Part shown: positions 31,858-34,128 of the stretch, one piece after another | Layout of the letters: each line of letters opens with the position of its first letter | How positions within the stretch are numbered: the stretch's first letter is position 1 | Assembly: GCA_937138675.1 (NCBI GenBank) | Contig: CAKZPG010000011.1 | Location: 1-34,128 of the forward strand | Origin: an uncultured archaeon | GTDB lineage: Archaea; Halobacteriota; Halobacteria; Halobacteriales; Haloferacaceae | Reading direction: 5' to 3' | DNA: 34,128 nt | Program-made: the position numbers and the translations under genes | Notes under the pieces: generated by a model | Seen by the model: only the letters and a program-made list of their open reading frames with translations | The model's database searches: none | Told to the model about the DNA's origin: nothing

Positions 31858-33216
31858 TCAGTCGCTCAGGTCGGGCGACACACGAGCCTCGGGCGCGTCG
31901 GGCATCGCTCCCTTCGCGGTGATTCGGTCCGCGCACTCGAAGCCCGCGACAACCCCCCCGTCGAGGCTCCGTTCTGGATACTGCGCCGGACTCGCCATCC
32001 CCGCGTAGTAGATACCCTCCGCCAGCTCGTCGGCGAGGTTGTACGGCACCACAAGGTCGAGGTAGCCCCGTTCGTACACCGGCGCGGCGCGCGGGGCCCG
32101 GGCCAGCCTGAATTCGGAAACCACAGAGCGGTCGAACGCGGGAAACATCGACGCGATTTCCGAGAGCCACAGGTCTCGAAGCTTCGCGTCGCTCGCCTGC
32201 CAGCGCGGGTCGTCGAGGCTCTGGACGTAGCTCGCGACGTAGAGGAGATGGTCGCCGCCGTATCGCTCTGGGGGCACGAAGTTCGTGTGTTCAATCAGCG
32301 CACCGAAGGGCGCATCGTGGGCGACGTTGAGCCAGTAAGTGTCCGTGAGCGACTCCTCGAGCGTCACGACGGCACAGAGCGCGCCTTGGAAGTCGACAGC
32401 ACACTCATAGCCGGTGAGCGCCTCAAGAACGTTCGGCATCGTCGCGACAACGATCCCCTCGCTCTCCTCAACTCGCTCGTCGCCATCGTCGAGTGTCACC
32501 GTTGCCACACGGCCGTCTGTGACTCCCACTTCGGTCACACGTGTTCCCATCTGGATATGATCGTGGCCCACCGCCTCGACGAGGGTGTCGAGTAGTCGGC
32601 CGAACCCGCCCTGTAAGTAGCCGAGTACCTCGCCGCGGAGCAGATCACGCTCTCCACGGAACTTCACCCGCCCGAGGAACCACGCGGCGCTCACGTCCTT
32701 CTTTCGCTCGCCGAACTTCGCGTCGAGTAGCGGGTCGACGAACTGGTCGTACACTCCACGGGTGGTGTGATCGACAACGAACTCCTTTATCGGGACGTCC
32801 TCAAACGCCGCGAGATCGTCGTAGGTGTCGAACGACGGCCACCCCCCGCGTACGTCGATCCCGGTCGTGAGCATCCCGAGTCGGAACTTGTCGTAGAGGC
32901 TCATATGCGGATACGCGAGAATCTGCCACGGGGTGTCGAGCGGGTGGACCACCCCGTCGACGTAGTAGGCGTTTTCACCGATTCGCCACTCGATATCGTC
33001 GCCGAGGCCCAGCTCCTCGGCCAACTCGACTATCGTCTCTTCAGACTTCGAGAGGTGGTGGTAGAACTTCTCTATTTGCTCACCGCTCGTCTCGTACGTG
33101 GCCGCCAGCCCCCCGAGGTCGTCGCCAGCCTCGATTACTGTGACCTCGTGCCCCCGGTCACGCAGCCGGTAGGCCGCCGCGAGCCCCGCAATCCCGCCAC
33201 CGACGACGTGGTACAC
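31858..33216 (-). CDS. FAD-dependent amine-oxidase-type oxidoreductase
   Basis: 452 residues from GTG 33216. The N-terminus GGGIAGLAAAY (6-16) and the VIEAGDDLGG strand about 20 residues later (28-37) form the dinucleotide-binding fold of FAD amine oxidase/protoporphyrinogen oxidase/phytoene desaturase relatives. The end has GIYYAGMASPAQYPERSLDGGVVAGFECADRI, the second FAD contact. Similar haloarchaeal genes are annotated only as NAD(P)/FAD-dependent oxidoreductase; the substrate cannot be told. GTG is the first codon possible, as no in-frame ATG lies upstream. The MBL gene follows. Confidence 0.87.
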   Translation of the reverse strand: MYHVVGGGIAGLAAAYRLRDRGHEVTVIEAGDDLGGLAATYETSGEQIEKFYHHLSKSEETIVELAEELGLGDDIEWRIGENAYYVDGVVHPLDTPWQILAYPHMSLYDKFRLGMLTTGIDVRGGWPSFDTYDDLAAFEDVPIKEFVVDHTTRGVYDQFVDPLLDAKFGERKKDVSAAWFLGRVKFRGERDLLRGEVLGYLQGGFGRLLDTLVEAVGHDHIQMGTRVTEVGVTDGRVATVTLDDGDERVEESEGIVVATMPNVLEALTGYECAVDFQGALCAVVTLEESLTDTYWLNVAHDAPFGALIEHTNFVPPERYGGDHLLYVASYVQSLDDPRWQASDAKLRDLWLSEIASMFPAFDRSVVSEFRLARAPRAAPVYERGYLDLVVPYNLADELAEGIYYAGMASPAQYPERSLDGGVVAGFECADRITAKGAMPDAPEARVSPDLSD

Positions 33217-33240: not shown

Positions 33241-33743
33241 TCAAGTCGCTTGTGTCTCTTGTTTGGTCAGGTCTGCAACCAGCACGAAGTCGGGCGCGTC
33301 GGCGAGCCTCGCCCCGGTGTTCGCGTCGCGGTCGGGCGTCAGCGTCACGGATTGGGACTCGGTCAGCGGTTCGAACCCGGTTGAGCGCGAGAGCGTGAGG
33401 CTCGGAGTGTCCCAGCCGAAGACACAGTTGCGACAAACTGTCCCCCCTGTCGACCGGAGCCAGTCGAGTGTGGCACGTGTCAGCCGAGCGCACATTCCCT
33501 CGCCCCGAGAGCCGCGGGGGCGACCCGGAGCCCAGACGCCCAGCCCTCCGTCTCGGGGAGAATACCGTCACGAACGACCACGACCACCGTGCCGTCGGGC
33601 TCCCCGACCAGTACCCGTCGGTCCGCCCTGTCTGCCGCCTCGCGCACCCACTGCGGGTAGGTGTCGCAGACCTCGCGGTCCGGCCACGTATCGGCCGTCA
33701 GCGTGCCTACACGCGCCGTGTCGAGGTCGCGCCCGTCTCGAAT
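33241..33743 (-). pseudogene. GNAT acetyltransferase, 5' end lost to TnpB insertion and one-base frameshift
   Basis: On the minus strand the frame beginning at 33743 reads IRDGRD ... TADTWPDRE ... EGWASGLRVAP, then ends at a stop near 33480. A second frame continues as SRGEGMCARLTRATLDWLRS ... CVFGWD and stops at 33241. Together they make one GNAT protein, with the acetyl-CoA loop RGEGMC. Adding one G to the G5 run at 33516-33520 joins the two. The 5' end is replaced by the end of the TnpB element, so the start codon is gone. The gene is inactive as it stands; a sequencing error could explain the frameshift but not the missing start. Confidence 0.75.
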
Positions 33744-33745
33744 CG

Positions 33746-33763
33746 GTGAACTACCCTACCCTA
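33746..33763 (-). mobile_element. Right end of the TnpB element
   Basis: Minus strand after the tnpB stop: TAGGGTAGGGTAGTTCAC, then GNAT sequence directly. A sudden change from mobile to host coding sequence marks the boundary, though the exact base is not proven. This end of IS1341-type elements is known to overlap the guide RNA of TnpB. Confidence 0.6.
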
Positions 33764-34128
33764 CTCGCTCACGGCTGACGCCGTTCGCTCGTTGAGGGGA
33801 GGGCTTCCTGCTTCCACGACGCGCTTTGCAGATACAGGTGTATCCACAGGGAGCGCAGTCTCCACAGGCGTTGATTCGGAGTATCCCACTCCTACATCTT
33901 CGAGACCGCGAGAAAGAATGTTCCACGCCGCGTTCACGTCCCTGTCCGCCTCAAACCCACACGCCGGACAGGAGTGTTCACGGACCCACAACGGCTTCTC
34001 CGTCGAGACGCCACAGGACGCGCACTCCTTGGTCGTCCCGCGTGGATTGACCGCGACGAAGTGCGTCCCCTCTCGTTCGCACTTGTATTCGAGCATCCGG
34101 AGGAACGTCCGCCACGCGGCAGACGCCG
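33761..34128 (-). CDS. tnpB: TnpB RNA-guided endonuclease (IS1341/IS605 type), 5' part outside window
   Basis: Only the last 122 codons are in the window; the frame is open to the edge (34126 is the last complete codon). The zinc ribbon is clear: CASC (about 33983-34020 region) and HSCPAC with GF following, and the DRDVNAAWNILSRG segment holds the third RuvC acidic residue of the TnpB nuclease. The last 45 residues are a variable tail. TnpB is a small nuclease guided by an RNA made from the end of its own gene, and is the relative of Cas12. Any tnpA transposase would lie outside the window. Confidence 0.9.
   Translation of the reverse strand, partial: ASAAWRTFLRMLEYKCEREGTHFVAVNPRGTTKECASCGVSTEKPLWVREHSCPACGFEADRDVNAAWNILSRGLEDVGVGYSESTPVETALPVDTPVSAKRVVEAGSPPLNERTASAVSE

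Follow-up and report, generated by a model that had tools for sequence, protein, structure and literature searches.

An ISHma12-type IS200/IS605 element at the start of a GNAT gene in a haloarchaeal genome, and the guide RNA predicted at its right end

The window analysed here is the complete contig G000:C11 (34,128 bp) of a 1.86-Mb haloarchaeal assembly in 120 contigs, and it terminates within a tnpB gene whose stop codon lies close to GNAT-like coding sequence. This arrangement raises the question of whether a TnpB element has been inserted at the very start of the GNAT gene and whether its guide RNA would be taken from that gene and directed against the uninterrupted allele, as had been proposed in a sequence-only reading of the locus. 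Because the contig breaks in tnpB, the left end of the element lies outside the window. The tnpB codons that are present (34126-33764 on the minus strand, with a TAG stop at 33763-33761 by ORF reading) carry the Cas12f1-like_TNB domain (PF07282, E 1.1e-25) and correspond to the RuvC-III/zinc-finger end of TnpB only; RuvC-I and RuvC-II fall past the contig end and are present in relatives. The features of the locus are collected in Table 1.

Table 1. Features at the tnpB-GNAT end of the window, with the basis for each.
Feature	Position	Strand	Basis
tnpB 3' part, 121 codons and stop, truncated by contig end	33761..34128	-	ORF; PF07282
Predicted omegaRNA scaffold, ~149 nt, 5' edge TAGGAGTGGG, overlapping last ~44 tnpB codons	33746..33894	-	Fold, covariation, fourfold sites, tnpB-less copies
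Right-end hairpin	33753..33804	-	Fold; covarying pairs
Element right end, non-coding, final TTCAC	33746..33760	-	23 junctions stop at homologous base
Predicted guide, CGATTCGAGACGGGCGCGAC, initial 20 nt of the flank	33726..33745	-	Directly past right end
GNAT remnant, N-terminal part, from would-be codon 5	33480..33743	-	Homologues; stop reached after frameshift
GNAT remnant, second frame, lacking ~125 internal codons near 33293-33330	33241..33510	-	tblastn, five intact homologues
Amine oxidase-type flavoprotein gene (PF01593), next gene	31858..33216	-	After gatD and GNAT remnant in G002

Fifteen nucleotides, GGTAGGGTAGTTCAC, separate the tnpB stop from CGATTCGAGACGGG and further GNAT-like coding sequence. 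A search of the assembly with positions 33500-34128 gave 40 matches, the majority of which stopped at query base 383, corresponding to position 33746. In 20 regions that were examined, covering part of these 40 matches, 23 right-end junctions (the window counted) stop at the base homologous to 33746, and the DNA beyond differs in all 23; the junction sequence is TTCAC in 21, with single cases of CTCAC and TTTAC, and an additional copy (L019) has a small insertion at its right end. Because so many junctions stop at one homologous base, each with different DNA after it, the comparison establishes the border at 33746 as exact and real rather than a chance match, and the 15-bp element end that had been read from the window alone is borne out. 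Two further arrangements were seen among the copies: at G000:C10:5995-6551 the right end of one copy abuts a second, as if inserted in the latter's tnpB, and two copies in relatives (L182 and L185) end directly at an ATG (TTCAC/ATG), apparently just before a gene start.

On sequence comparison the element is an IS200/IS605 element of the ISHma12 type. Database records label the tnpA beside tnpB as ISHma12 family (NC_006393.1 and NZ_CP034941.1), and the ISHma12-type element of Haloarcula marismortui pNG500 (NC_006393.1) shares 92.7% DNA identity with the window over the available 383 bp; residues 293-413 of its TnpB, encoded beside an ISHma12-type tnpA, are 92.6% identical to the window fragment. 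Like the window element it has a right end in TTCAC, a left end after TTAG and 15 nt between the tnpB stop and the element end; it also has tnpA and the 5' part of tnpB, whereas the window contig ends before both. Matches were found in 142 of 170 family genomes (E <= 1e-10) and in 57 plasmid records (E <= 1e-5), and a search of a phage collection gave none. Elements of ~1.84-1.9 kb in relatives have a Y1-type tnpA frame ahead of tnpB and those of ~1.55-1.6 kb have tnpB alone; no TnpA (Y1 transposase) was found in the window's own assembly, which is 80.6% complete with repeats collapsed. The TnpB homologue at L187 matched the ISDra2 TnpB structures with an E of 5e-34, residues 4-373 being aligned. 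According to the available text of PMC8612924, the ISDra2 TnpB-reRNA system of Deinococcus likewise has tnpB at the right end, a right-end RNA and a flank-derived guide; its TAM is the left-flank target of TnpA, as would be the case here, with TTGAT there and TTAG proposed for the present element.

The left border was located on another contig. The assembly has a single close match to gatD, on contig C107, which runs for 51 nt beyond the stop codon of gatD and breaks off inside left-end sequence common to contigs C56 and C51. A reading of TTGA as the motif of the left flank, suggested by the end of C107, was dropped, as other left ends put the start of the conserved block at TTAG. Joining ...GTGGACTTAG to CGATTCGAGAC... 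gives VDLAIRDGRDLDTARVGTL, in which GTG GAC TTA G/CG ATT CGA is translated (M)DLAIRDGRDLD; relatives have MDLTLRP-type starts, for example GTG GAC CTG ACC CTC CGC. The gatD stop is retained at the joined site (TGG ACT TAG; TGG ACC TGA in relatives), and TTAG falls exactly in this stop, where gatD and the GNAT start overlap. As the joined flanks restore the GNAT start and keep the gatD stop, the insertion, judged from the joined sequence, splits GNAT in codon 4 and TTAG is host DNA; we infer this site across two separate contigs, C107 and C11, whose join is not itself assembled. Read from ATT at 33743, the frame has GNAT-like homologues in 69 of the 170 family genomes, and the homologues examined start at least two codons upstream of that position. 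Placement of the element at the very start of GNAT is therefore upheld by the restored start, and the earlier estimate that the gene resumes from codon 2-3 was corrected to codon 4 once the left flank on C107 had been located. A relative with the same left-hand sequence and no GNAT start would have spoken against this placement; the left flank proved instead to be gatD with an overlapping GNAT start.

The same tetranucleotide recurs at other insertions. When left ends were gathered by an anchor inside the element, and not on TTAG itself, TTAG preceded 41 of 48 (19/23 in the same genome, 16/17 in relatives and 6/8 in plasmid records), these counts covering recognised left ends, which leaves aside three of 20 loci in relatives and two of 10 plasmid loci; the other seven left ends follow TTAA (three), TTAC (two), TTAT (one) and TTTG (one). 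Because it stands before 41 of the 48 left ends, TTAG is likely to be the TAM. Empty alleles agree with insertion 3' of a short target without duplication. At site L178, in a genome whose inferred genus is Halorubrum, comparison with the empty allele of G154 gave 58 of 64 matching bases with exactly four nucleotides (TTAG) kept, and at most 40 matches with 0-3 or 5-8 kept. The copy on pHTUR01, compared with Haloterrigena alkaliphila and Natrinema sp. DC36, gave a gapless empty site with TTAT kept. At L173, another site in Halorubrum, TTAG stands immediately ahead of the matching right flank in two relatives and TCAG in a third; the best count of kept nucleotides is three for G159, G162 and G163 give no definite count, there are left-flank indels in the relatives, and the clean alignment is limited to TTAG and the right side. 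Tests for empty sites based on open reading frames in seven short elements were mostly uninformative, GC-rich DNA being open in many frames; only a 71-bp mini-element (L116) in another tnpB was clear, where keeping four nucleotides restores the CxxC spacing. Among plasmid searches, L193 gave a usable empty site and those with L187, L189 and L196 gave none. Overall the ends are precise, targets are not duplicated and elements lie on the 3' side of a short, fixed target, with one exception: at L176 (G192:C1, about 2.33 Mb) the frame of the interrupted gene fits five kept nucleotides, or one lost nucleotide.

The right end of the element also appears to encode an RNA. The last 160 nt (33746-33905) have a fold z of -3.54, and eight of 40 consensus pairs in 22 sequences show changes on both sides; this covariation serves also the DNA hairpins read by TnpA. 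Of these subterminal hairpins the right one was folded, and the left is known only as palindromic sequence. Selection on an RNA whose 5' edge lies at TAGGAGTGGG is indicated most strongly by synonymous sites: across 26 tnpB genes, fourfold-degenerate third positions had a mean pair identity of 0.92 in the stretch that begins at codon 369 (31 sites) and of 0.67 in codons 61-364 (148 sites; p 8e-11 by the Mann-Whitney test, only a guide as the sequences are related), with the step at TAGGAGTGGG, 149 nt before the element end. The scaffold has the same 5' edge in tnpB-less copies. Covariation and fourfold conservation together support a predicted omegaRNA scaffold that overlaps the tnpB 3' end. 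RNAs overlapping tnpB ends had been described as established in Halobacterium, which the available text of PMC12558985 confirms: it reports omegaRNAs/sotRNAs at tnpB ends, and those of H. salinarum cited there (RF02656 and RF02657) overlap the tnpB 3' end, as is predicted here. A search of the window slice against Rfam, these two sotRNA models included, gave no match with E<=1, and none reached the gathering threshold in four loci with related copies.

The predicted guide starts at 33745, in support of the proposal that it begins just past the right end. It has one exact occurrence in the assembly and three other places with three mismatches. The further proposal, that it should match the empty GNAT allele of relatives, was sustained in part, and at another site. 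No matching GNAT allele was found in the relatives examined, the best ungapped match within +-60 nt being 10-14 of 20 bases (29 loci). A DNA search of 60 relatives gave short matches only, the best of them in the neighbouring amine oxidase gene; a scan of relatives' contigs with the GNAT piece matched no relative; and a protein search found GNAT homologues, but these were too diverged for a guide match. At L178, by contrast, the guide matches the G154 empty allele at 19 of 20 bases, including all of the first 12, with CTAG rather than TTAG at the TAM position. At the window the guide is thus identical by construction to the right flank of its empty target beside the TAM, and at L178 the identity holds for 19 of 20 bases.

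Taken whole, an ISHma12-type insertion 3' of TTAG, with a GNAT-derived guide and retention by TnpB, is very probably the best explanation of the locus. The element would have entered the gatD/GNAT overlap without target duplication, and the last ~149 nt of the tnpB region, the 15-nt end included, would double as the omegaRNA scaffold. The RNA would extend beyond the element and into GNAT, which would make the right half of the empty site its guide and the TTAG on the left its TAM. Following TnpA excision, or on arrival of an empty allele, TnpB would cleave TTAG/CGATTCGAGACGGGCGCGAC, after which an occupied copy would serve as repair template and bring the element back (peel, paste and copy). 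Sequence comparison shows the two borders of the element, the restored frame, the rule of TTAG at the target, the constraint at the RNA level and, at another site, an empty allele that fits the guide. Transcription, RNA processing, cleavage and repair at the window locus are proposed by analogy with known systems, as follows from the available text of four papers. ISDra2 is excised 3' of TTGAT and makes a right-end RNA with a ~16-nt 3' end from the flank, and the donor joint is cleaved and repair reinstates the element (PMC8612924); TnpA and TnpB use the same TAM (PMC10278001); and gene-drive behaviour is described in plasmids (PMC11870625). No report of a TTAG or TTTAG TAM was found in the portions of the literature available. 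The mechanism is an ordinary one, known for such elements, and is well documented here.

GNAT, however, may not have been a working target. This copy has three lesions, namely the insertion, a frameshift near 33507-33516 and the ~125-codon deletion (tblastn). GNAT has nearly disappeared from G002, a genome of the same genus, in which the amine oxidase gene comes almost straight after gatD. The two lesions besides the insertion make the present copy a pseudogene, in a gene under relaxed selection, and since it is decaying for other reasons too, the insertion is probably near neutral. It is reasonably probable that GNAT was already dead, or never a working target, and that the element is a neutral passenger whose position reflects the TTAG exactly in the gatD stop at the gatD/GNAT overlap. 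The order of the lesions is undatable and the frameshift could be an assembly error, which is unlikely for the deletion; such a history is in any case compatible with TnpB retention. The earlier description of the locus as a live example of homing is weakened by the two further lesions.

Another reading would be that the element is real but inert, with tnpB or tnpA dead, the right end a mere landmark for TnpA and no guide RNA acting. This we consider unlikely. The failure to find a Y1 transposase in the assembly would fit it, as would the many short or tnpB-less copies in the same genome and, in the available text of PMC12558985, the report that TnpB was hardly detected in Halobacterium; against it, the tnpB fragment of 121 codons is an intact open frame, conservation of fourfold sites within the omegaRNA part is strong across the 26 tnpB genes, and the genome has several right ends with 98-100% identity, which implies recent movement. 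That C107 and C11 carry the ends of two different elements, the GNAT start being a coincidence of frame, is very improbable: the contigs are not physically joined and several copies have the same ends, but 27 of the 29 homologous loci examined in detail have gatD ahead of GNAT and the join yields the right frame, length and gatD stop simultaneously.

More unusual than the insertion in the window are elements that lack tnpB and keep the scaffold. Eight copies in the same genome (L014, L016, L017, L026, L027, L028, L083 and L084, on contigs C45, C21, C17, C112, C14, C84, C81 and C61) keep the ~149-nt omegaRNA scaffold and the right end, with private guides. Those on C112, C14, C84, C61 and C81 form a family marked by a spacer that is not related to the transposon, a stretch of ~170 nt shared by several copies; the C112 and C14 copies start at a contig end and may extend further. 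The scaffold is joined by three different upstream contexts at or near the same edge. In structurally different elements the 5' edge of the kept block coincides with the edge of synonymous-site constraint in tnpB. Stronger constraint in the omegaRNA than in other parts of the tnpB-less copies was sought by eye and none was evident. Mini-elements of 69-86 bp (L110, L115, L116, L118, L100 and L107) consist of fused left and right ends only. Stand-alone omegaRNAs are said to have been described for IscB by Altae-Tran and colleagues in 2021. Short transposase-free elements with IS605 ends are known from Haloquadratum walsbyi as PATEs and HqIRS71, and one H. walsbyi element has an extended terminal segment that includes C-terminal tnpB sequence, like the tnpB-less copies here (available text of PMC3119063).

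A few TnpB proteins could be shared in trans by the tnpB-less scaffold-keeping elements, each with its own guide, a suggestion that we make tentatively and hold to be doubtful; if true, one nuclease would protect many short non-autonomous insertions in trans. For the family itself, a haloarchaeal IS605 group now has sequence-defined ends, a likely TAM (TTAG) and an omegaRNA edge supported by constraint, and natural pairs of occupied and empty alleles are available for it. With closely related elements in culturable halophiles (Haloarcula and Halorubrum), TnpB retention is directly testable.
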